From Bryum argenteum (taxonomy: Eukaryota; Streptophyta; Bryopsida; Bryales; Bryaceae): DNA of 64,000 nucleotides. Within the stretch, counting starts at the first letter, position 1; the number at the start of each line of letters is the position of its first letter. Of this stretch, positions 44,298-63,139 are shown one piece after another. A program made the translations under genes and the position numbers. The notes beneath the pieces are model-generated. The model was given only the letters and a program-made list of their open reading frames with translations. It ran no database searches and was not told where the DNA came from. The DNA is taken from the NCBI GenBank assembly GCA_037043015.1, contig CM073323.1:16873758-16937757 (forward strand), in the 5' to 3' direction.

Positions 44298-47241
44298 CTA
44301 ATCTGTATCAGAATGAAAGGGCCTCAGATTTTCTAAAAGGTCTCTTGTCCCACCATTTACTAGATGATCAATGCCATTGGACGAGCCTGCTGTCTCTTCT
44401 TCGTCGTGCTGCTTCTTGACCACCACCGGTCTGTTACTCAAACCCCATATCCGGATAGTGTGATCGTCGCTGGCCGATGCAAACATATGAGGGTTCACAG
44501 GGTTCCAGCTTACGCTATTTACAGTGCCTGAATGGCCGGGCAGCACATCCAGCAGCTCACCGTTCCACCTGTGCCAAATGTAAACCTGCACAACCACTTC
44601 TTCTCAGCATTTACTTTCCCAGAAACAGTAAGAGACTGCACTCAAGATTCTCGTAAACGTGAGTGTAGGTAGCTAGGGGCGAACCTGGGAATCTTCACTA
44701 CCACTCACGATAAACGCATAATCAGTTCCTCCGAAGCAGGACCGAATCACATATCGCCCTTGTCGATGACCTCTGTATTTCTTAGGAAGCTCTTTCGTGG
44801 CCGAGATGTCCCACAGATGTATCTCCTGACTCACCAGGTTTACCAGCAGATATCTTCCGTTCTTACTGACTGAAAGGGATGTGATCGGCTTCTCCTCCTC
44901 TATAACACGCTCTGTCTTTTCTTCCAAGTTGTAGATGCGGATATTCTTATGGTCACAAATACTCACCTGCCAGGTATCACGAATAAAAAGTAAGAATATG
45001 CTGTGCAAGATCTTCAGGATGCTTTCTACATCACCGATGCCTACACTAACGAGTCCTCCAGGGACAGGACGGTTATATCCTTTGAAAAGGTTCAGTCCTA
45101 AAGAATGTGATGAAGCACTCACATTTACAGCAAATCAGCTCGGAGGCTGAACGACTGTGAGATTATTGAATATTACCGACTAGATTACTACCAAATGGAG
45201 ACCATCTTCGCATTAACTTAAAGCATGAAAATCAGGCCAACAGTGCCGAATCAGCTGTTGAGAATATTATCTTGGATTTGTATATTTGCGCATTGCAGAC
45301 TCAAGAACTTAATGGGAGAAATTCTTTACCATATGGCTACCGTCAGTTGTAATTGCCAAATCATTGATACGAGGCATCCGCGCACCCTTCCAAGCCTCCA
45401 ACTCGTGGCCCTGAACGAACGTTGAACACGAAGTCACGTTAATATGAGAAACCGATTTGAGGTGAAGACAAGGAGGGGCATGACGATAACTCTTTGTTGT
45501 AATGAAGACGAACATTGGGTCTACAATTCGCTTCGAACTGTTCATACAAGATATCCAACTAAAAGCCGCATATTCTAAACATTGAACACGAAATTGTTAT
45601 GCTTTAACAATTGATAAGGACAGTACTCAAGGATTTAGTTAATACGGAAGTGAATCCCAGTTCTATATCAAACCCGGAATCTCCATACCTCAAGATCCCA
45701 CATGTAGATGCACTTGTCACCTCCACCAGAAACAAAACGTTGACCATCTGGGAACCATGCACAAGATGTGAAGCAGCTATTCGGTTTATCGTAAGTGTAT
45801 TTGCATTGCCCTGAAGTTGTGTCCCAAAGCTTCACGACTTCCTCATTACCACAAGTCAGCAGCATCGTGTCATCAGGACTCCAGGCAACAAAAGAAACAG
45901 GCTTCGAGTGACCAGTGAACCGGAACTTCACTTTCAGTGAGTCATCTTCTACTACCTGCGATCGATAAAATTGCAGAGCAAGATTACTTACGGTGTACTT
46001 CTGAATCTACACCACTTGGTGTCGGATGAATGATTACGTAACGGAAGAAGAATATACTACACGCTTCGCATACAGACCAAACAGATTCCGAATGAAGTGA
46101 CCAACAAACCTCCCAAATTATGGCTGTGCAGTCTTTAGATGAGGATGCGAGGTAACGACCGTCATGGGAAAATTGCAAAAACCAGACCTCATCGTCATGC
46201 ACTTCTAAAACCTGCGCAAGATAATCAACCATGATCTCAGAAATCAACATTTTCATACACAAATAACTCTTACACAAGATGCCAATCCAGAAAATGTCTA
46301 CAATACCTTCCAAGATTACATAAAAAAAATGATCATTGTCCCAATTACAAAGAAGTCCTGTCCACTACATAGACTGAGTAAAAGAAGATCATAGCTATTG
46401 GTGTATAAGCCTGTCAGTAATTAAGTCATTCAGACATTAAGTCTAGTACCTGCAGAGTCTGAGTTGGAATTTGGTCTCGGCTACAGCGATGGTCTGCATA
46501 GAGAGACAAGACATGATCGAGTGTATTATGGTAAACACATGCTTCTCGCTGCACTTGAAGTGCAACCTCAACAAGATGCTCCAATCGCTTCTCAGGTACC
46601 ATGATTGAAGGAGGAAGCAACTGCTGCAACTCTTCTAGCAAGCTCTGACGCGATTCTTGCCCAGCGCCCTTCCACTGAGCCTTCGTAAGCAGATCCTCCG
46701 GAGAACATACTATGAAGCTGGCCAGCTGATGCACTTTAGGAGTGCTGACTCCTAGTGGTGATATTTCTGAGCGCAGAGTTTCTAGAGCTGCAGTTGTGTT
46801 ACTAACCTCCAGGGACTCCAAAAACTTCTGTTGCAATATAAGAAACGAGGCAGACTTGAGGGTTGGCTCTTCAAGGACGCCAATTTTGGATAATGTGGCG
46901 ACGCATTCATCCCAGCGACCTGCCAAGATGTCCTCACGGAACTTCTGCACAGCTGGCGACTGAAGTCGAATTCCTGATTCTTCTTCTAAAGCTGCACCTG
47001 CCTGCTTGTAGCCGAGGGAGAAGAGAGCTTGCTCTATAATCCTGACAAACTCCACTTTCCGTATTTGCCCATGAGACCCCACCGTTTCGCCATCATTAGA
47101 AGGAATACTTCTGGCCATTAGGGCGGCGGACCCCGTGGCTACCACACCAGTCCGGGACCCCTCCAGGGGAGTTCTATGACTAGATTTTGACAGCTTCTGT
47201 CGCTTGAAGGGGGGTTGCCCAACGTCGCTATCTCCTCCCAT
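44298..47241 (-). CDS. WDR26: WDR26-type protein (LisH, CTLH, seven WD40 repeats), 603 aa
   Basis: Six coding exons on the minus strand: 47241-46450, 46211-46110, 45955-45689, 45410-45330, 44966-44685, 44585-44298, all joining at phase 0. Near the N-terminus PFKRQKLSK (11-19) is a probable nuclear localisation signal. LisH spans about 61-92 ([20 protein letters not shown]). CTLH spans about 98-155, starting [19 protein letters not shown]. Seven WD repeats follow from about 265 to 563, ending YMWDLEG, HLWDISA and IRIWGLS. Proteins of this type are scaffold subunits of the CTLH/GID E3 ubiquitin ligase, and the plant WDR26 proteins have been linked to hormone and stress responses; the substrate cannot be read here. 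The tail after WD7 is acidic and ends HSDTD. Its length is very close to the Arabidopsis homologue. Confidence 0.96.
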
Positions 47242-48560
47242 GTAAGGGCGTCAACCCGATGACTAGCCCATGCATGTGATGATAAAACAAGTTCTTCTTT
47301 GTTTGACTCCCAAAGCACCACTTCCTACAATTCGATCGACACAGCTCAATGCCCTGCCACAACCAACAATTACAACAAGTCCGCCTCTCAGAATGTTTCC
47401 CGCTTCATGAACCTCCGCAAAATTGTCTGAACTCTATCGAAAGTCAAGTCCAAAAAACCCTAGAACCGACATAAAGATTGCTGAAGCCGTCCCCGAATCA
47501 AGATGATGACACCATCATCATTCTCGACATAGAAACATAATCAACAATCAGCACTGCAAAGACAGCGCGTACGTGGTTTCAAGAATTGGAAGAACTACGT
47601 AGAAGCGATCGCTAAACGGACAAAGTATTTGAGCACGTGATTGCAACAGAGACAAAGATGGTCGACGATGACGGCAGAAGATAGCATAGATGCTAACGAA
47701 CAACACTAACCCTAGCCTTTCAACTTCTAACCCTAACCCCGTCTCCATCAAACCGAGACTGGTTACAACCAGAATTCTACCACATAGAAACTAACAACAC
47801 AATAAAAATCATCCTTCCAACTACACGCGCCTCAAAACCTCAAACCCTAGGCAACAGATGGATCCACTCTATCCATCCGCACCGAACCGACATCATCACA
47901 ACCTAAACCGCAAACACGGCGCCCGTGAGCCTTTTCCGTCCACAATACGCGAACGAGGATAACGTGTGCGGATCTACTCCAACATGCGCATAATTGACTC
48001 TACACCGATCGATTACTCTACCACACCAAAACCTAGAATGTCTCGAACATGCCCGGAATTGTTCCGAGCAAGCGAAGAGAGTGCAACCAATTGGAAGGGA
48101 AAGAGAGAGGCCAACCTCAAACGCGGCGATGTCGAGGCAGTACGGCAGCTATCCAAGAAACAGAGTATAAGGCCGAGAACGGAGATGAGAGCAGCGATAC
48201 CTGCAGCGAGGGCGACAAGGTCCAGAATGGAGGAGATGTATGACGAAGGGAATGGGACAGCACGAAGGGAGAGGGAATGGCGGGCTTGTATGCTTAAACA
48301 GTGAGAAAAGCACGAGAAGAATCGGTGCGAGAAGCTTAAGAAGTGCAAACTCACGATCAGAGCGCGGATCTGGTGATGGCACGAGCCGCACAAGCAGCAG
48401 CGATGGAGCAGAAGCGAGTGAAGCGCCCCTACAAGGGAGGGATGAAGACGAGCAGAAGAGCAAGCAGAGGGCTGCCGAAGCGCGGGTGGGCGGACAGCTC
48501 CGGGCCGGGCCGGGCCTGGCCCTTTGCCCCCCCTCCCTACCCTAAAGTTCCTTAACCCCT
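47242..48560 (-). promoter_or_regulatory. 5' leader and promoter of the WDR26-like gene
   Basis: This is comparatively GC-rich, especially 48030-48540, with no recognisable protein. It probably contains the 5' UTR, possibly with an untranslated exon and intron, and the promoter. A GGGCCGGGCCGGGCC run lies near 48503. The overlapping minus-strand frames at 48013-48393 and 48149-48463 look like leader-encoded nonsense rather than genes. Confidence 0.4.
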
Positions 48561-52020: not shown

Positions 52021-54113
52021 CTACAGGGAACACCATTAGTTTCCTGAATTAATAACTTTACTAACACCTTGCCATGTTTGTATTTGAAGGCTTACTGTGA
52101 ACAAGCTATAGATCCAAACAAAATTTTATAAATTGGATGTCAATCCTGACTTACCAAACTTCTCAAATGTAAAATCAAATTTTTTAAAAAAACTTTTGTT
52201 GGCACTCAATATTTGGGATGGAGCTTAACCCTTAATTGTCACCGGTGACCAAACTTGTCATTGTTTTTGCTTTTGGGGTCTGACAGAGTGGTAGGGTGCA
52301 AATCTTGTCCAAAGGCACCTCTGTTCTTTTGTTTTTCCAAATCCAATGCTCCTTCTTGATCGCCTTTTTGAGGTTTGTGTGATCCGCGCAAAATTGTAGG
52401 GGCCACGTGATTCCATGGTCAATGCTCTTTGACTTGGCCTTTCTTTTATTTTTTTGACGATTTTTTTTCATAATAATAAAAAGTCTTGATCTTTATCCCT
52501 ATACGATGCTCTATGATGCCAATTTTCAGAAAAAATGACCCAAGAGGGGAAAAACCAAAAAAACAATATGATATTTCTCACTCATGATCAACAACCAAAG
52601 CATTTTTTTCTCAACGGTGCCATTTTTTGAGATTTTACCCAATGTGATCGACCTTTTTTGCATTGGTCACATCACCAAGTTACCTTGATAACCACTGTTT
52701 CCGATTCTCAAAATTGTTTTACCTTCAGTGTAGAAATAAGGCCAGAAGACAATGAGGTTGTATTTCTCTCCAATTTGTGGAGAACAAGGATGTCAATTAA
52801 AGGTTAAAATGGAGTCGAGTAGGCTCTTAGACCACTTCTAACGGTGTGGCTAAAGGAATGACTGAAAATAGTTAGGGAGGAGGGGTTTCTAAACCTAGCA
52901 CCCATTTGGAACCAAGGCCCTTTTCTCACCCTATTTCCAACTCTACTATACCATGGCAACGTCCCTTGATATCACTCAAAAAGATGAAGACAATAGAATA
53001 ATGCTAAAAAAGAATAAAGAAGATAGACGCTAAAAAAGATGACAATAAAATAAAAAAATAAATAATAAAGATAGAAGGATGCTCAAGAATATGATGAAGG
53101 GTCGCAAGTATGAAGAGGAAAGTACATTGGATTCTGAAAAGGAGGGGAGGGTGTTGGTGATAGGCTGGTGGCCGGTGAAGAGCATTTTTTTTTGCGGGTC
53201 GCCAGAGGAAGCAGATTTTGTAGTGGATTTGCTCGAAAGGAAAATGGCATTTGCCTAGCAAGTCTTGTTCTTTTAGCTAGTTCGTTAGGAATGCCCTTAA
53301 GGGTTAAATAAGGCTTTTTCAAAGACAGGCTAAAGGTCAAGTTAACTGAAATTGACAATACGTTGAGGTAGTAGTTGAGTGGTTAGAGAGGCAGATATGA
53401 GGCTTTAGAGGCTTACTACATTTGGCGAGTTCCAAAGGCGGTGGGTCCAGTCGGTAAAAAAAGAAAATGCCTTTTTGAACTTGTGGACTTTTACACTTAA
53501 ACTTGGTTATGGTGTGGTGAAGGGTACATTATAGCAATAAAAATTAACCTATGAAAGGGTGTAGATTCAAGGGGGTGTTACATTTAACGATCCCTCCTCC
53601 TTCACTAAGTTTAACTAGTTCATTACCCTTATTTTAATGAACGCCTTGGCTATCTTGTAGTGTGAACTATTATATACAAGAATAAATCAATAATCAGTAA
53701 GCAACAATACAAGTGTCATAAAGTATGTAAACAAGATTGTGGTTGTATTTGTTATTTTAATACTTTTTAGAACCTTCTATACTAATCTATTCTAATAGCT
53801 ATGTTTTGTCAATTCATAGATTTTTGACTTTAAATTTTACACTATACTCGGGTCAGGATAAACATGCCATCCAAAATCATAGAGGTAACCAAAAGTTTGA
53901 AGCTCATTACAAAATCAATAGAAATTATGAAATCCAATTTAACTTACTCCCAAAGAAGTCCTGATCTAATAAATGTGGCCTTACATACAGAAATTATATT
54001 TTCACTATACATAAGGCAATAAAATTTATAACACATACAAAGAATGAAAACATGTCCTAATATCAATTTAACATGTACATAGTACAAAATTTCTTAAAAA
54101 ATCAAAGTCTCAA
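52021..54113. other. AT-rich spacer
   Basis: No gene is supported. A CTTGTAGTG string at 53655-53663 resembles a CACTA right end, but no left partner was found. Short minus-strand frames near 52232-52471 and 53083-53358 show no domain. Confidence 0.3.
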
Positions 54114-54200: not shown

Positions 54201-54303
54201 GAAGAGCCATAAGTACTGGTTGAGTATGGCTCTTCAAGCATGAGATTATGGTCCTAAGTATCCAACATGCACTTACTTAGAAAATAATTTACCCATGGAT
54301 TAA

Positions 54304-54563
54304 CCCCTAAAGATCCAAGAAAGCCGAAATGGCTTTTTGGGGTTTCCGCAGGAAAAAAAGTCAGCCAACTTTGACCATTATAATCTCGAAATCGGAAAAA
54401 AATGAACGGTTCAAATTTGACATATGAGTGTAGGGTCAAGTTCACTTCAAGATCCTACGGTTGGATCTTCTAATTAATGCTTAGATTGAGTTTTTTCGGG
54501 CCTGAAGTAGACGAGGGTCCTTTGTGATAATTTAGACAATTTTGTATCAAGGATCTTTAGGGG
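54304..54563. mobile_element. TTAA-flanked MITE, 260 bp (piggyBac-like ends)
   Basis: TTAA at 54300-54303 and 54564-54567 flank perfect 13-bp inverted ends CCCCTAAAGATCC. TTAA duplication with ends starting CCC is the signature of the piggyBac superfamily. The interior is non-coding but includes a stretch at about 54376-54470 (from CCAACTTTGACC to AAGATCCTACGGTT) that resembles part of the CACTA element at 19580-19680. Its ends share CCCCTAAA with the larger element at 59815-61761 but differ further in. Confidence 0.85.
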
Positions 54564-54618
54564 TTAAGAATCTTATTTGTGCCTCACGGACACTTTATAT
54601 GAAGGGTCATATTCGGTA

Positions 54619-54728: not shown

Positions 54729-55506
54729 GAACATTTTGACTTTCCATGTAAATCGTTTCATATATGACCAAAAAACAACCAAACAACCTAAAATAATACT
54801 TGGTTAGAGAGAACATTCCAATACGTGGAAAATAAGTAAAATTGAATTTTCGACAATAAAAAGACAATCATAGAGCTTAAGTCAATGGGCAAAAATTTCT
54901 AGAAGATTATTGCTAAACTTATCATTTCAACAAATTTGCCTAGGAACTATGAAATGAATGATACATTTTTTGGAATGCAGAGTAAACCAAAACAATATGA
55001 ATGATAGAGATTTTAGAAATTATATCTTTTGGTGCGAATGATTTAGGCCTATGATCATAATTGTTATTTTTTTATTTTTTACCTTGACATCCAAGTCTTG
55101 ACGGGTGAGCATAGAATTAGACTTTGTCTCGAGGGTTGGTGTTTCTCGGGGCATGCCGAGACTTAGAGCAGCCTCGAGAGGAGGGAAGATTGCCATATAA
55201 AAACGACTACAAGTACCAACCATGTCATAATACTTACAACATCCCGCTCAACATTTTCCGCATTGCTTTTCACATATTCCTTAATTCTATTTTTGCTCAT
55301 TCCCTTACAAGTGCTTTTGAGGTACGAATACAACTTCAACTTTTTTTTTATACATTTCTAGCCTTCATTTTATCACTCTCTTTTGTTAGATCTTACTACG
55401 TTTCTAAGATAGTTGATTGTAATTGAGTTGCACAATATTGAATTAGAGTGACCGCGATTCCAACAAGCGATTCCGAAACTTAGTTGCACTTGTGGAGTGC
55501 AGACAC
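54729..55506 (+). other. Upstream region of the F-box-like gene
   Basis: AT-rich spacer; no separate gene is visible. TATAAAAACGAC at 55196-55207 is a plausible TATA element about 300 bp before the ATG, on the plus strand. A GTG-initiated frame begins 15 bp upstream of the ATG but there is no reason to use it. Confidence 0.4.
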
Positions 55507-57072
55507 ATGCCTACCATCGACATGAGTGCACGAGCTTCTGCCCACACTCACTCGGATTCGGAATTGCTCGAAGTGGCGGATCTGGTTCTATGGTCCAGGA
55601 TTCCCACCCTCACTGCGCGCGAGGTTGCGCAGCGCAAGAGAGTGAGCAAGGAATTCTCCACCTGGGAAGCAACCTTCATCAACCCCATTGTCAAGGCCCG
55701 ACTTCTCAATCGCACTCATGATTGGTTCTTTCCAGTCATTTGCAAGACTGATTGGACTTGGAGGGGTATCGCCCATGCAGCAGCTGCGAATCTGACTTCT
55801 ACTACACTCCAAGCTCTTCCTGCATTTGAGATTTCCCCTTCCATGTATCCCCGCCATGCTATCATTGCTTGCGCTGGCGGTCTGCTTCTCATCAAGCTCC
55901 AAGCCGCCAATCCCATCACGGGGTGGCACCCACTAATCGTATGCAATCCGTTCACCAAGAAATGGAGGATGCTTCCAGAGGCCAATTTTGGAGTTTCCTG
56001 GGATTACAGCGGGGTCCAAGCCCATCTGGATGTTGCCGAGGAGGCCAACACTTACACCGTGATCCTGCTTTTCGACCACGGTGTTTCGTTTTACGAGTCC
56101 AAGTCAAACCTTTGGATATTCAACCCATTTCCTACGAATGCCGGTACATCGGAGAAGACTGGGCCTGCTGTCGCTCCATGGCCCGTCAGCATGTTTATTA
56201 CTACGAATGGCGGTATATGGGGGAAGACTGGGCCTGCTGTCGCTCCATGGGGCTTTGTGTGCCCAAGCGTATGTGAGGGCAAACGCGTCTACACAGCAGA
56301 TATTGAGATGTTTGGACGAATCGAACCCTTGATCGACCCGTCGTATGCGCGGGATGAAATGTATGCAGGTCATTTAAGGATCCACGAAATTAACTCCGAA
56401 GCTGGAACATGGGAACGGACGAACTTTCGTTTGCTGAAATCGTACCAGAACTTCGGAGATTCACCTTTAATCTGCTACAAGTTCCGCAAGAATCTAGGGC
56501 GGAAAAGCATCGTGTTCAACACAGGGATACTGAGGTACCTAAACCTGGTGGAGTGCGGCGGGGACTTGTACGTGATCATTCCTGCTCGTTTGGACGAAGA
56601 ACTGCATCACGATGAGTGCTGTACGATGTATGGGTTCGATGATGAAGATTCAGGATGCAGGTACCCGCCGACGCCTCTGAGGCTTGAGAGCGAGGGCATG
56701 GAGTGGATGCCACTTCAGTTTCACGTGTTTCAGGTGAAGCAGGGCCAGAGAGCCATTGTTTCGCATGCTGTGATACGCATCGGGGTGCCTGTGAGCAGAG
56801 GTGATCTTGCTAGTCGGAGGAAGGCGCTATTTGAGCTGACATTCCAGAGCTATCAACCATTCCGGAACTGGTGGAGCTGTACGTCCGTGGGAAGCGTGGT
56901 GTGGGTGTCGGTGCAAGACTACCTGGTGGAGTACGATGTTGCGACGGGCAGTTCGAGGACGCACATCATTTCCGTCGTGGACGGAAACAGCCGATGGGGC
57001 AATCTTGATCCCATATGGAGCGTTGATAATCTGGGATTCGCATACCGGCCGAGCTTCCACATGAAGCCTTAG
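55507..57072 (+). CDS. Intronless F-box/kelch-like protein, 521 aa
   Basis: A single uninterrupted exon. Residues about 21-55 (ELLEVADLVLWSRIPTLTAR, then RKRVSKEFSTW) have the spacing of an F-box, though it is degenerate. The remainder resembles the kelch/galactose-oxidase-type propeller that follows F-boxes in plants: AIIACAGGLLLI, VCNPFTKKWRMLP, NLVECGGDLYVI and WVSVQDYLVEYDVATG. Such proteins select substrates for SCF ubiquitin ligases; the target is unknown. Residues about 209-249 contain a 23-residue tandem duplication centred on KTGPAVAPW. Codon usage is clean and GC-richer than the flanks, so the gene looks intact. Weak F-box conservation leaves open a stand-alone kelch protein. Confidence 0.82.
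   Translation: MPTIDMSARASAHTHSDSELLEVADLVLWSRIPTLTAREVAQRKRVSKEFSTWEATFINPIVKARLLNRTHDWFFPVICKTDWTWRGIAHAAAANLTSTTLQALPAFEISPSMYPRHAIIACAGGLLLIKLQAANPITGWHPLIVCNPFTKKWRMLPEANFGVSWDYSGVQAHLDVAEEANTYTVILLFDHGVSFYESKSNLWIFNPFPTNAGTSEKTGPAVAPWPVSMFITTNGGIWGKTGPAVAPWGFVCPSVCEGKRVYTADIEMFGRIEPLIDPSYARDEMYAGHLRIHEINSEAGTWERTNFRLLKSYQNFGDSPLICYKFRKNLGRKSIVFNTGILRYLNLVECGGDLYVIIPARLDEELHHDECCTMYGFDDEDSGCRYPPTPLRLESEGMEWMPLQFHVFQVKQGQRAIVSHAVIRIGVPVSRGDLASRRKALFELTFQSYQPFRNWWSCTSVGSVVWVSVQDYLVEYDVATGSSRTHIISVVDGNSRWGNLDPIWSVDNLGFAYRPSFHMKP
56132..56253 (+). repeat. 69-bp in-frame tandem duplication within the F-box-like gene
   Basis: CTACGAATGSCGGTAYATSG followed by GAAGACTGGGCCTGCTGTCG, CTCCATGG occurs at 56132 and again at 56201, a period of 69 bp (23 codons). 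The second copy is complete through CTCCATGG at about 56252. The last 30 bases of the shared part are identical, so the event is recent. Confidence 0.93.
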
Positions 57073-57485: not shown

Positions 57486-59810
57486 TGTTGCAACGAATGG
57501 CTCATGCTACTATCATTAGTGCAATGTAGGAGAGCTAGTAAGATAAATAGTATTTCAGTTTTTTACTTTTTTGATTCTCATATAGTGGATGAAAAAACTA
57601 CGAAGTTGAGCATGGAGTTAGGGAACTCAAATGTTTGCACAAAGAATGCAATGTGTCCCTAAAGGAATAGTATTCAATACAACTCGTTATTGTTATTTAA
57701 TATTTTATAACCTTTTGCCTCAAGTGTTTTATGCTTTGACATTTTTAAGATTTATTGAAGTCCATTTGTTATGTGATGATTTTTTATTGCATCAAGGGAT
57801 AGTTTATGTTGAATTTTGTTTGTTATAGATGACGAAGACATAAGTAGTTTCATTTTGAATTTCTTGACTGATGATTATTCATATATATATATATATATTT
57901 TCGTATCCAAACCAAGTTGCTATGTTTTAGGACTTGCAATACATCTACCATAGTTTGAAGGAGAATATATGAAAAGAAGTGGTACAATGGCCATAAAATA
58001 TTTGAGTTTTGAAAATATCAATTGTATTTTTTGAGTAGTAGCTCATCTTGCACAAAAAGGTAAGTGGTATTCATCATACTAGTGGTTTACGATTTGTGAT
58101 TAGATACTATTTAAGCCTCTATTATATGTGAAAAGATAATAGTAAGAGGAAGTGTTGAACCTGGTCTTTTCATCCAAACATATAATCAATGTTGCCTTGG
58201 GATTTAAGGTGAGCATGCCCGTTCACAACTTTGTTGAGTTTACTCTAATTTTGCTTCTGAAGAGAATTATTACACTTTACCACTTAAGCTCCTATCTCTA
58301 TAATGATTTGATAGCACTTGTGCATGTTTATGTGTAAAATCAACATTGACAGATCATGTATAAAAGATAGGAGAATTAAGAGTTTATTATTTGCTAAAAG
58401 AAAATGGTATTGATAAACTCCTAGAAATCTAGGAAAACCGATTTGGGTGTTTGAGATTTTGGGGAGTTCATTTGAAGGGGTTAAAATTGATATTTTTGCA
58501 TAAGATTTTTTCTAGGTACTCCTCATACTGTAATGTGTATGTGGTAAAATTTCCAATGCCAAAATTCAATTTTAAAACCTTCATTTAGAAATTTTAGGTT
58601 TTATGTAGTTTAAATTTAGATTTTTAAAAGTTTTCTTTTTCGAAAATGTGTTCATTAGCAATTTACTATTCAAATTCCAAAGTGACCGAAGTCAAAAAGT
58701 ATACCAATTTTACAAGGAGAGCCTCCAACACTTTCAAAAACAATTCCCACTAGTTCTAGTAATTTTACAAATTTTTCCAAGAATTTGTTTTCAAAATTCA
58801 CATACTCACAAAGGCACCTACTCACCGTCCAAAATTTTCTTGAACTAAATACATCATATGTGGTGCTTGTTTTACGATATTGTTGTTTTTAGACCTTCTT
58901 TCATAAAATAATCTACATGAAGACCCACAAACGTGGAATGAGTCTTTAAAACTTTGCATGAGAGTACCCAACTTCATTAAGAGACAAATCTTTGGAGTAA
59001 AAATCATCAAGTTGCCCACTTGCCCTTGACACCATTTAGACAATGCCTCTCAGGTAGCGGCAGAAAATGTTTTTGGACAAACGTTGATCGTTACCATCTC
59101 CCAAATTACAAACATCCAATGATTGAAATTTTGACAACTCCTTTGTATACATGTTTAGTTCAAGATCTTATGGTTCGAAGTCTAAAATCAAGAAAAAAAG
59201 TTTCTTCATTTCCCCATTTCCCAATGGAGGTAAAAAATGGCCGTTTTTGGTCAAGGAGGTGGAGGAGACGCTTGAATGTTTAGGGCTTAAGATTTGTCTA
59301 TAACAAATAAAACTATATTATATTACTCAAATATGAATCAATTGTGACTATATTAGTCATTACACTCATAGTAGACAAGTTATAAATATTACGATTCTCA
59401 TTCCTGAAAAAGAAGGTAATTGTGACCAAGGAGTTAATGTCAGTGCGGTACTTGTAACTACAAAATGACTAAAATGGTCCCAGAGGAGCCCGATGTCTTT
59501 GTTGATTGCGTAAAACTTGTATCTTGTTGCTTGTGTACAACACCGATCATAGATGAAAGGCCTCAAAGACCAAGTACATCCACAACTTATTGTCCATTTT
59601 GCTTATGTGAAAAAGCAAGAGTCATTGAGTAAATATACACTCAAGGCGGTGTTGGTTTTATTGTTCCCCCTATCCGACATGGATTGTCCATTGTGGGTTT
59701 ACGCTAACGTAGAACTTGAGCACTCATTGTACAATCATTCCATGTCAAGAAGTGTAGTAACCTTATTTAAAAAATTTGACGTGGCCCGTATATATATCGT
59801 TACTTATTTC
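57486..59810. other. AT-rich spacer
   Basis: No gene is supported. An AT microsatellite lies at 57880-57898. Around 59110-59165, AACATCCAATGATTGAAATT and CAAGATCTTATGGTTCGAAG resemble segments shared by the CACTA and TTAA elements elsewhere in the window, so a decayed element is likely. The remainder shows nothing recognisable. Confidence 0.3.
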
Positions 59811-59814
59811 TTAA

Positions 59815-61761
59815 CCCTTAAACGCCGACGATGTTGAAAAACGGCATTTTGGATGTACATCAGAAACTTTGAAGGGCTATATCTTCTTCATCCGAGGTCC
59901 GTTTTGGATGAAATCACTTGGATTAGGTTCCAAATCAAGTCTAGTTTGTGTTGTAAAATTTTCAAGCCCATATATTAAAGTATGAATTAATGGAATGCAC
60001 TTTAGTGAAGACAACTCTTGTTTTTGGGTTTCCAAGCATGGGGCATGTATTACCATTGCAAGCCAATTATGTGAAATTAAAAACAGTTATTTATGATTTT
60101 TTTTTTCATGGTCATGATCTTAAGGTGATTCTTAACAACTTTTTAGTGAGAAGTTTTTTGATCCAAATGATTTTGCTATTGGATTTGCAATGATGTTTTG
60201 TCAACAGAAAAAGTGAGAAAATGGATGATATTTGAGGAGCTATATCTCCCTCATCCACCGTTGGATTTCAACTTAATTTTTTGGGATGGCCTCCAATTAG
60301 AGTCTAGTCTAAGTGGTAGAAACCTTAACAAGATCGAAGATGTTTCGAAGATAAGGCATGGAATTGAATGCAAAGGGTCTAGTTTTGGACTATTTTTCCT
60401 TTGTAAAATGTTCGGTAGATTTTACCATTGCATGGCTTTTATTTGAGCCAAGAAATTTTTTTGATGAATTTTTGTTGGGTAAAGGACTTATTAACCCCTA
60501 AACGCGCCGAATGTCGAAAAACGACATTTTGGATGGAAGGCAGCAACTTTGAATAGCCATATCTTCTTCATCCGAGGTCCGTTTTGGATGAAATCACTTG
60601 GGTTAGGTTCCAAACCAAGTCTAGTTTGCGTTGTATAATTTGCAAGCCCATACAATAAAGTATGAATTAATGGAATGCACTTTAGTGAAGACAGCGCTTG
60701 CTTTTGGGTTTTCAAGCATGGGGCATGTATTACCATTGCAAGCCAATTATGTGAAATTAAAAATAGTTTTCATGATTTTTTTTTTCATGGTCACGATCTT
60801 AAGGTGATTCTTAACAACTTTGTAGTGTGAAGTTTTTTGATCCAAATGATTTTGCTATTGGATTTGCAATGATGTTTTGTCAATGAGAAAAGTGAGAAAA
60901 TGGATGATATTTGAGGAGCTATATCTCCTTCATCCACCGTTGGTTTCAACTTAATTTTTGGGATGGCCTCCAATTAGAGTCTAGTCTAAGTGGTAGAAAC
61001 CTTAACAAGATCGAAGGTGTTTTGAAGATAAGGCATGAAATTGAATGCAAAGGGTCTAGGTTTGGACTATTTTTCCTTTGTAAACTTTTTGGCGCTTTTA
61101 CCATTGCATGGCTTTTATTTGAGCCAAGAAATTTTTTTGATGAATTTTTTTTGGGTAAAGGACTTATTAAGATGAAGGTGAACATCTCTCTAGTTGGTAA
61201 TTTTTTCATTGCAATAGGTATATTGGTAGCATTTCCACCTCAAAGTGAAAATGATGAAATTTTGCAGTTTGTTTTTAGTATTAATATGTTATGATCTTCC
61301 GATCTATAAGGCCTCATGACTCAAGTTTTGGTCCACATGATCTTGGATAAGTCTATTACAAGTTTGTACGGTTGAGATCTTAATAGCTTCTCTTGATTTT
61401 CATCTATGAGGATTTCTATGGAAATGTGCTTTTCTGCTAAAAATAGGCTGGGGCGTTTAGGGGTTAAGATGAAGGTGAACATCTTTCTAGTTGGTGATTT
61501 TTTCATTGCAATAGGTATATTGGTAGCATTTCCACCTCAAAGTGAAAATGATGAAATTTTGCAGTTTGTTTTTGATATTAATATGTTATGATCTCCCGAT
61601 CTATAAGGCCTCATGACTCAAATTTTGGTCCACATGATCTTTGATAAGTCTATTACAAGTTTATACGGTTGAGATCTTAATAGCTTCTCTTGATTTTCAC
61701 CTATGACGATTTCTATGAAAATGTGCTTTTCCTGCTAAAAATAGGCTCGGGCGTTTAGGGG
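59815..61761. mobile_element. Outer TTAA element (piggyBac-like ends), split by a copy of itself
   Basis: TTAA at 59811-59814 and 61762-61765 flank inverted ends CCCTTAAACGCC and the complement of CCCCTAAACGCC. The left part (59815-60490) and right part (61468-61761) together make about 970 bp once the inner element is removed. The two parts meet at TTAA in the unsplit inner copy (61167-61170), showing that the insertion used an internal TTAA. No transposase is present; frames at 60198-60446 and 60911-61294 are decayed or fortuitous. Confidence 0.88.
60495..61463. mobile_element. Inner TTAA element, 969 bp, inserted into its own copy
   Basis: TTAA at 60491-60494 and 61464-61467 flank ends CCCCTAAACGC and the complement of CCCCTAAACGC. 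The left 676 bp repeat 59815-60490 and the right 296 bp are repeated at 61468-61761, each at high identity by eye. The uninterrupted internal junction is GACTTATTAAGATGAAGG. The only difference in architecture from a tandem array is that the order is L-L-R-R rather than L-R-L-R, which a nested insertion explains directly. Confidence 0.88.
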
Positions 61762-61765
61762 TTAA

Positions 61766-63139
61766 CTTCACCTCCCTCATTGTTAGAATCCAATGTGGAT
61801 CTTCTATTCTCTTTCTAATATTTTTGTTGAATATTATTTGTGACATGCGAATCAAAGAGTCATTGAACAGTCATTCAATGTCATGCATTGTAGTCACAAG
61901 TTTTCGATTTCAATGTAGCTCCTTGATTTTCTTCTTATTTATTATTCGTGGTATATGTTTTTTGACATGGAAAACTTAAAGTCATCTTGCAATCATATTT
62001 TTCCAAGAACTTTGGTGAGTTTTTTAAAATTTTTTTTAAATTTTTTATTTTTTTTATTTTTTTTTTATTTTTTTAAAATTTTTTTAAAAAATCCCGCTCG
62101 TCTATTCTCTCCTTATTTAATCGAATAAGTCGGAGTCATGTTGTGGTCATTTCCTGCCGGGAACTACAAATGATTTTTTTTGGGTATGTGGGTGCTCGAT
62201 CTTCTCTCGTGTTTTATGTATTTGGAAATTATTAACTGACGTGGATCACTTAATATCATTTTGAAGTCATTATGTTGTCAAGATTTTTTTTGTTTTATTC
62301 TCCACCTTTAGCGGTGTAGTTTTGATAGGCGTATTTCATAATATTATATTTTGTAATGTGGGATCAAAGAAGTTATTCTTTATTATTATTAGATAATGGA
62401 ATAACAATATTTTCATATGGAGCAGTAGAATTGCTAAGTGGAAATACAATCCTTTAGAATATAATTATTCTCATCTAGTAGGGCCAACAAATGACAAAGT
62501 TAGGCCCTGTGGTAATTTTCATTAGTCTTTCAACTTAGACTTCAAAACCTAGCAAATATATTTTGTACTCAATGTTCAAGGATAGTAATTTTGCAATCTT
62601 GAAAACCATAGCGTTGTCGGCTTTGCCATACTAGGGTTTAAATTCTATGGATTTGAACTTAATACTATAGTATGACAAGTAAAAATGACATAGAACTGAC
62701 TTAGAAATGACTTGCAGAAACCAAAATATGACTAAAGTATGGCTAGTAAAAATCCATGATGCACATATTTCCAACTAGATAGTGTTGTATTTCTCAAGTC
62801 CTTGGTGATTTATAATTGTAGAGGAGGTGTTTTATTTTATTCTACATATCACAAGGTTAAGGTAACACCATGCAACATGAGCGGCATTTTTAGCAGCAAG
62901 CCTAAAGTTTACTTCAAAAATATTTTTAGCAAATGGGTAATAGTTATAGTGTGAGCATGTTAGTCATTGTATAATCACACTTCAATTACATGTGCATAAT
63001 AACACATCTTTGACAATGTTATCACTTCAGTATCATAACTAGTAATAAAGTATGAATATTACTAATTAGTGACTTGAGTTGACACAATATTGTCTGACTT
63101 GCATATGAATGAGTTTGAAATTTTTGCAATCAACCAACC
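61766..63139. other. AT-rich spacer with degenerate GTCAT-type repeats
   Basis: No gene is visible. Between 61850 and 62280 segments such as AAGAGTCATTGAACAGTCAT, TTAAAGTCATCTTGCAATCA and CACTTAATATCATTTTGAAG, TCAT recur about every 120-150 bp, suggesting a decayed tandem repeat. A T-rich tract occupies 62015-62085. From 62680 TATGACTA/ATGACTT words become frequent. Confidence 0.35.

Follow-up and report, generated by a model that had tools for sequence, protein, structure and literature searches.

Two piggyBac-superfamily mini-elements, one inserted into the other, very probably account for the repeats at positions 59811 to 61765 of our window (a stretch of 64,000 nucleotides from the moss Bryum argenteum). 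Both are non-autonomous, and their transposase would be supplied in trans by autonomous elements of the same moss genome. We base this on the nest itself, a 4-bp target duplication, the DDD transposase domain found in TTAA-flanked elements, the similarity of the ends, and near-identical copies. piggyBac is a standard genome-engineering tool known chiefly from animals, and many piggyBac transposase genes are unusual for a plant genome. Taken by itself, the nest is nothing unusual; what stands out is its surroundings, the piggyBac expansion of the moss genome.

In this scenario, an older copy would have inserted first, duplicating its TTAA target, and a second, younger member of the family would then have entered an internal TTAA of the older copy, duplicating that TTAA in turn. 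Such an insertion splits the older copy into a left part (L) and a right part (R), which gives the arrangement L-L-R-R. The transposase would have acted in trans from autonomous piggyBac elements, which in the seven measured are 4.9 to 8.4 kb long and carry a long DDD-transposase frame.

Structure of the nest

Reading the sequence places five TTAA tetranucleotides at 59811, 60491, 61167, 61464, and 61762, exactly where the initial annotation had put them, and they delimit four blocks in the order TTAA-L-TTAA-L-TTAA-R-TTAA-R-TTAA. The spacings from TTAA to TTAA are 680, 676, 297, and 298 bp, in agreement with the block lengths first given except for the second, which had been put at about 680. 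Pairwise alignment bears out the claim that the first two blocks repeat each other, as do the last two. Positions 59815-60490 and 60495-61166 are identical at 628 of 678 columns (42 mismatches, 6 gaps; 93.7% ungapped), and 61171-61463 and 61468-61761 at 281 of 294 (12 mismatches, 1 gap; 95.9% ungapped). Given their length and likeness, these repeats are not due to chance. The region is AT-rich, with 24 TTAA within 59700-61900, and the telling point is that the repeat borders coincide with the five named above.

The older, outer copy lies between target duplications at 59811-59814 and 61762-61765. Its left part (59815-60490, plus strand) has the left end CCCTTAAACGCCG rather than CCCCTAAACGC, as had been claimed; the end of its right part (61468-61761, plus strand) is CCCCTAAACGCCCGAGC in reverse complement. 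Between the two parts sits the inner copy (60495-61463, plus strand), a 969-bp noncoding mini-element made up of the second L and the first R and supported by genomic matches and the alignment of 28 distinct copies. Its terminal inverted repeats are CCCCTAAACGCGCC on the left (60495-60508) and, as the reverse complement, CCCCTAAACGCCCC on the right (61450-61463), matching at 13 of 14 positions, and a palindrome, AATGTCGAAAAACGACATT, adjoins the left repeat at 60510-60528. The target duplications of the inner copy are the TTAA at 60491-60494, which the sequence and the genomic copies identify as the former internal TTAA of the outer element, and the TTAA at 61464-61467. With the 969-bp inner copy and one TTAA removed, an outer element of 974 bp is restored, which differs from the inner one by 54 mismatches (94.4% identity, 5.6% difference). 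An element of about 970 bp in the internal TTAA of a second copy, as originally proposed, is thus what the sequence contains. The inner copy retains the corresponding TTAA at 61167-61170, still unoccupied, whereas at three other loci (L044, L046, and L048) this site is filled. A filled and an empty version of one site are paired in the nest.

Within 59700-61900, the longest stop-to-stop frame is only 128 amino acids, and a Pfam scan of three frames from this region gave nothing above the cut-off, which marks the window element as noncoding, a mini-element lodged in an older family member. Within the mini-element, the stretch 60548-61154 (like its counterparts in the other copies) also bears the remains of an ancient tandem duplication of ∼362 to 370 bp; in the numbering of one genomic copy (L008), positions 58-83 pair with 420-445 and 232-294 with 602-664.

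Genomic copies and target duplication

A genome search with the inner copy returned 6331 first-look candidates, 40 of which were scored, so the copy numbers given here are lower bounds. Among the 44 matches listed, 41 were full-length or nearly so, at 83 to 100% identity, with the window copy included. Loci were picked in two ways, 8 of them as best matches and 30, out of 78 matches, for an exact left end, using a left-end pattern that left the first T of TTAA free. This selection favors young, intact copies among the 28 distinct full-length copies obtained. TTAA stands on both sides of 27 of these 28, and ATAA stands on both sides of the remaining one (L022). Seven of the 30 exact-left-end loci fall outside the 28 because they do not align as one full-length piece. 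Two are shorter copies (L009 and L024) and one is an interrupted copy (L031, whose right end lies in L041), all with TTAA on both sides; a diverged copy (L038) has its right alignment end on ATTAA, with the terminal repeat gone; in three others (L012, L013, and L035) TTAA is established on the left side only.

Counts across the whole genome agree with this picture. The end with its TTAA, TTAACCCCTAAACG, has 3260 matches (reversed control, 3), compared to 104 for VTAACCCCTAAACG, in which the first base is A, C, or G (reversed control, 118); TTAACCCYTAAA has 23184 (reversed control, 401). Copies lacking TTAA at their borders, which according to the initial annotation would speak against a nested TTAA insertion, are thus not the pattern seen. 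The ATAA on both sides of L022 fixes the duplication at 4 bp and speaks against TA, a conclusion drawn from this single ATAA copy among the 28. A 4-bp duplication that is nearly always TTAA is a feature of the piggyBac superfamily, and it is present in the window family as well as in all seven autonomous elements described below. The 2-bp TA or 3-bp TWA duplications of Tc1/mariner and Harbinger elements were not encountered, judging from L022 as the single case and from the 3260-to-104 ratio of TTAA to VTAA.

piggyBac transposase genes in the moss genome

Searching the genome with the profile of the piggyBac transposase domain, PF13843, gave at least 116 matches, the best of 775 first-look candidates, and all 116 scored above the curated cut-off (best match, 281.6 bits, E 7.4e-82). 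Ninety-three of them are stop-free inside the match, which does not equate to intact, and 23 contain one or two stops. The profile had no match in 14 unspecified control genomes. The open reading frame of one locus, L051, brings all three catalytic D residues into register with those of the solved Trichoplusia ni (T. ni) piggyBac transposase (6X67; E 2e-29), and it also matches piggyBat (9C0F) at E 7.7e-24. We aligned 11 moss sequences, namely 10 of the 12 fetched transposase loci plus L073 (L053 and L056 were excluded, as they hold stops). All 11 have the three catalytic D residues, and 10 also have the moth enzyme's fourth D, L052 being the one without it. Substitutions next to the catalytic residues include R for G beside the third D in L051 and K for N after the second D in L055. 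piggyBac transposases carry a Cys-rich zinc-binding domain at the C terminus. A Cys-rich tail can be made out by eye in L051 and others; in the eight proteins scanned with Pfam at E 0.001, PF13843 was the only match. The open frames of the seven elements measured range from 514 to 1187 amino acids.

A tree of 44 proteins puts the moss transposases at four separate places within one group (support, 100/99), apart from the T. ni group. The other 13 members of this group are jgi, lgn, and ena sequences; because they were found with a moss query, the sampling of the tree leans toward moss-like sequences. Among public proteins, the closest show identities of 64%, 59% (over 38% of the query), and 55%; for named animal proteins the identity is 28 to 32%. 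A homolog search with the moth transposase is uninformative on mosses: all organism-named entries among the best 120 of 965 matches were from insects.

Autonomous elements and the probable partner of the window family

Seven of the 12 fetched transposase loci were traced to their ends (L050, L051, L052, L055, L057, L058, and L061). In each, convergent TTAACCC ends, 4950 to 8392 bp apart, enclose the transposase match, and CCC-starting inverted repeats are flanked by TTAA on both sides. These stretches hold further TTAACC words, and we chose the pair with mutually matching terminal repeats; in L058 and L061 the match is imperfect. The autonomous ends include CCCTTAAACGCCC and CCCCTAAAGATCCA. 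The initial annotation had suggested a search for a full-length element encoding a DDD transposase, and these seven TTAA-flanked elements, with similar ends, carry a transposase match of that kind. The piggyBac-like identity it had assigned is likewise upheld, with DDD transposase genes inside TTAA-flanked elements of the same genome. For their part, the inner ends of the window, CCCCTAAACGCGCC and CCCCTAAACGCCCC, fit piggyBac-type terminal repeats, with a start that is partly CCCC rather than CCCT.

Which of these families serves the window elements? Over the first 24 bases from the TTAA, the right end of the outer copy matches the L050/L051 5' end at 21 positions and the right end of the inner copy at 20, compared to 15 to 19 between the right ends of the nest and the ends of five other families. 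The left ends fit less well and do not favor L050/L051. The outer left end in the window matches L050/L051 at 17 of 24 and the L055 3' end at 19 of 24; the outer-copy left ends at L044 and L046 match L050/L051 at 18 of 24 and the L055 3' end at 20 of 24; and the inner left end matches L050/L051 at 15 of 24 and any of the seven elements at 17 of 24 or fewer. Outside the ends, similarity to the autonomous loci is confined to short stretches, in part involving other repeats that lie in the flanks. The L050/L051 family is favored because its 5' end best matches the right ends of the nest, and a partner close to this family appears most likely, although it is only moderately identified. The mini-elements would presumably use the enzyme through their ends.

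A second TTAA mini-element family is represented in the window at 54300-54567 (plus strand; 268 bp from TTAA to TTAA), with the terminal repeat CCCCTAAAGATCC. Its left end matches the 5' end of the autonomous L055 at 24 of 24 bases, TTAA included. One candidate for an autonomous partner, L047 (C1:1865580-1871570), was rejected; it consists of ends from two distinct mini-elements, separated by 5.9 kb, and holds no open reading frame longer than 161 amino acids. Extensions of five copies whose right end was out of view (L039 to L043) showed no transposase-like open reading frame by eye.

Nesting elsewhere in the genome

The L-L junction, GGACTTATTAACCCYTAA, has six matches in the genome and none in the reversed control. 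The L-L-R-R arrangement is thus exceptional among family copies; its presence throughout, which the initial annotation had named as counterevidence, is not what the genome holds. We read four of the six junction places (the window, L044, L046, and L048), and they contain four different inserts. Besides the window copy, these are an insert of ∼260 bp and one of ∼1.05 kb, each with a different terminal repeat (L044 and L046), and a relative of ∼0.6 kb with 73 to 76% identity (L048). In all four, the outer element resumes past the right TTAA of the insert; in L046, 79 bp are missing from the outer element slightly beyond the point of resumption. L048, a 1.59-kb long variant on C7, had been considered as an autonomous element and was rejected, as it is another nest in the same internal TTAA.

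Two further internal TTAAs gave 10 and 1 junction matches (reversed controls, 0), counted by exact left junction, with L031 alone being read; the junction searches thereby cover three of the family's nine internal TTAAs. Position 673, one of these TTAAs, was considered as an insertion hot spot and then discarded, as another internal TTAA gave more junction matches (6, 10, and 1). Altogether, the varied inserts and the several filled internal TTAAs indicate that nesting is frequent, that several families are involved, and that the nest is not a trait propagated together with the element. Other elements stand back to back with one common TTAA (e.g., L032, L016, L037, and L046). The partners belong to other families or, in L032, to a diverged copy of the same family, and in these pairs the border TTAA of the resident copy is reused as a target.

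Alternative explanations

Other superfamilies duplicate TTAA, and the transposase might instead have come from Kolobok or Sola3, the latter of which uses TTAA. A Sola1 element is tabulated for Physcomitrella in the part of PMC9033089 available, and the available text of PMC9587614 describes TTAA duplications made by Kolobok. However, the same text sets Kolobok apart from piggyBac by its ends, 5'-RR...YY-3', which differ from the 5'-CC...GG-3' of the moss family, and the piggyBac transposase genes lie within elements that have the same kind of ends as the nest. We consider either source very unlikely. A Tc1/mariner or PIF/Harbinger mini-element, for which the true duplication is TA or TAA/TTA and the remainder of TTAA is target preference, is equally compatible with the window nest alone, if its ends are read as ACCCC...GGGGT with a TA duplication. 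The nest had been presented as internal proof of TTAA choice; the TTAA target itself is confirmed by the genomic copies, but the nest alone does not prove it, since a TA-duplicating element with A...T ends would look alike. What separates the two is L022, where a TA duplication predicts GGGGTTAA on the right, whereas GGGG stands straight before the ATAA that flanks this copy on both sides. With the case against TA made up of this one site (1 of 28 copies) and the transposase genes, we give such an element hardly any weight.

It is also conceivable that L-L-R-R arose by segmental duplication or by recombination of two tandem copies, with no transposition involved, as unequal exchange can give interleaved repeats too. 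Yet both breakpoints of the nest fall exactly at TTAA, with no bases lost or added, the inner copy is complete and has ends of its own, and the same internal TTAA holds other sequences in L044, L046, and L048. This origin strikes us as extremely improbable.

Age and activity

If the nest is indeed the product of piggyBac transposition, how recently did the system move? Eleven of the 28 mini-element copies deviate from the majority sequence by no more than ∼0.2%, including two without any difference, and the most distant two are 18 and 21% away. Six transposase copies on five contigs, chosen for equal score, differ by 0 to 1 base in 1149. The near-majority copies and the near-identical transposases indicate recent movement, apparently a recent piggyBac outbreak in a plant. 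We infer cut-and-paste action of the transposases on the window family, in a system that has been mobile recently or is mobile even now. On balance, it is reasonably probable that this land plant harbors a living piggyBac system, with several deep autonomous lineages that are at least partly intact, have recently transposed, and drive thousands of TTAA mini-elements.

If true, this would be a native plant piggyBac counterpart of Ac/Ds and mPing. Near-identical plant transposase genes together with young mini-elements open questions that animal systems answer only in part. Plant silencing of piggyBac, mini-elements outgrowing their source, and the performance of native enzymes compared to the moth enzyme in plants would all become testable.

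Comparison with known systems

The moss elements share with T. ni piggyBac (6X67/6X68) and piggyBat (9C0F) the TTAA duplication, CCC...GGG ends, short inverted repeats, and PF13843 with three D residues. According to the available portions of PMC2872659 and PMC10813416, piggyBac inverted repeats are ∼12 to 19 bp long and start with CC[C/T]T or CCC, and the latter also describes CCC ends and rare non-TTAA duplications of piggyBac. The inverted repeats of the window family, at 13 to 14 bp, are like these short repeats. In contrast, the seven moss elements measured span 4950 to 8392 bp, compared to ∼2.4 to 2.5 kb for the moth element in what is available of PMC2874221 and PMC10813416, and the moss transposases are placed away from the T. 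ni group.

A close parallel for the mini-elements is found in coral CMITEs, as described in the accessible part of PMC2872659. These are TTAA-flanked, piggyBac-related mini-elements of several families, with CCC-starting repeats (e.g., CCCTTTAAGCCCTA; family III starts with CCCC, as do part of the moss ends), and they too insert in the internal TTAA of another element. They differ in being animal elements of ∼100 bp with a conserved 75-base core, whereas the moss family is 969 bp and the others are ∼260 to 1050 bp.

The initial annotation described piggyBac-like elements as seldom reported from land plants, which is fair, as long as seldom is not taken to mean never. Within the text available for each, PMC2874221 reports piggyBac-related elements in plants as present and probably inactive, PMC10004981 includes piggyBac among the superfamilies of angiosperm MITEs, and PMC6890710 tabulates 1230 PiggyBac matches for a fern. 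Like the angiosperm MITEs of PMC10004981, as far as these are described there, the moss family consists of plant mini-elements filed under piggyBac; the moss feature beside them is the presence of transposase genes in elements with like ends in the same genome. The moth element is a tool that, in the pertinent part of PMC5505980, was untried in Physcomitrella at that writing. A word search of the main text of two papers on plant MITEs (PMC12550479 and PMC12595863) found neither piggyBac nor TTAA, and in PMC10619864 the sole related word was "piggybacking." Among the matches listed from the open-licence literature, no paper was on moss piggyBac transposons by title or abstract.

Other features of the window

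Lone or loosely paired TTAACCC ends at 48552 and 52225-53307 may be piggyBac-type remnants. A 541-amino-acid open reading frame on the plus strand (55447-57072), without a Pfam match, looks F-box-like by eye. On the minus strand, 46426-47250 is an exon of a WDR26-like protein with a LisH motif, and by protein similarity it points to a moss host, its best organism-named matches being from Sphagnum, at 69 to 70% identity.
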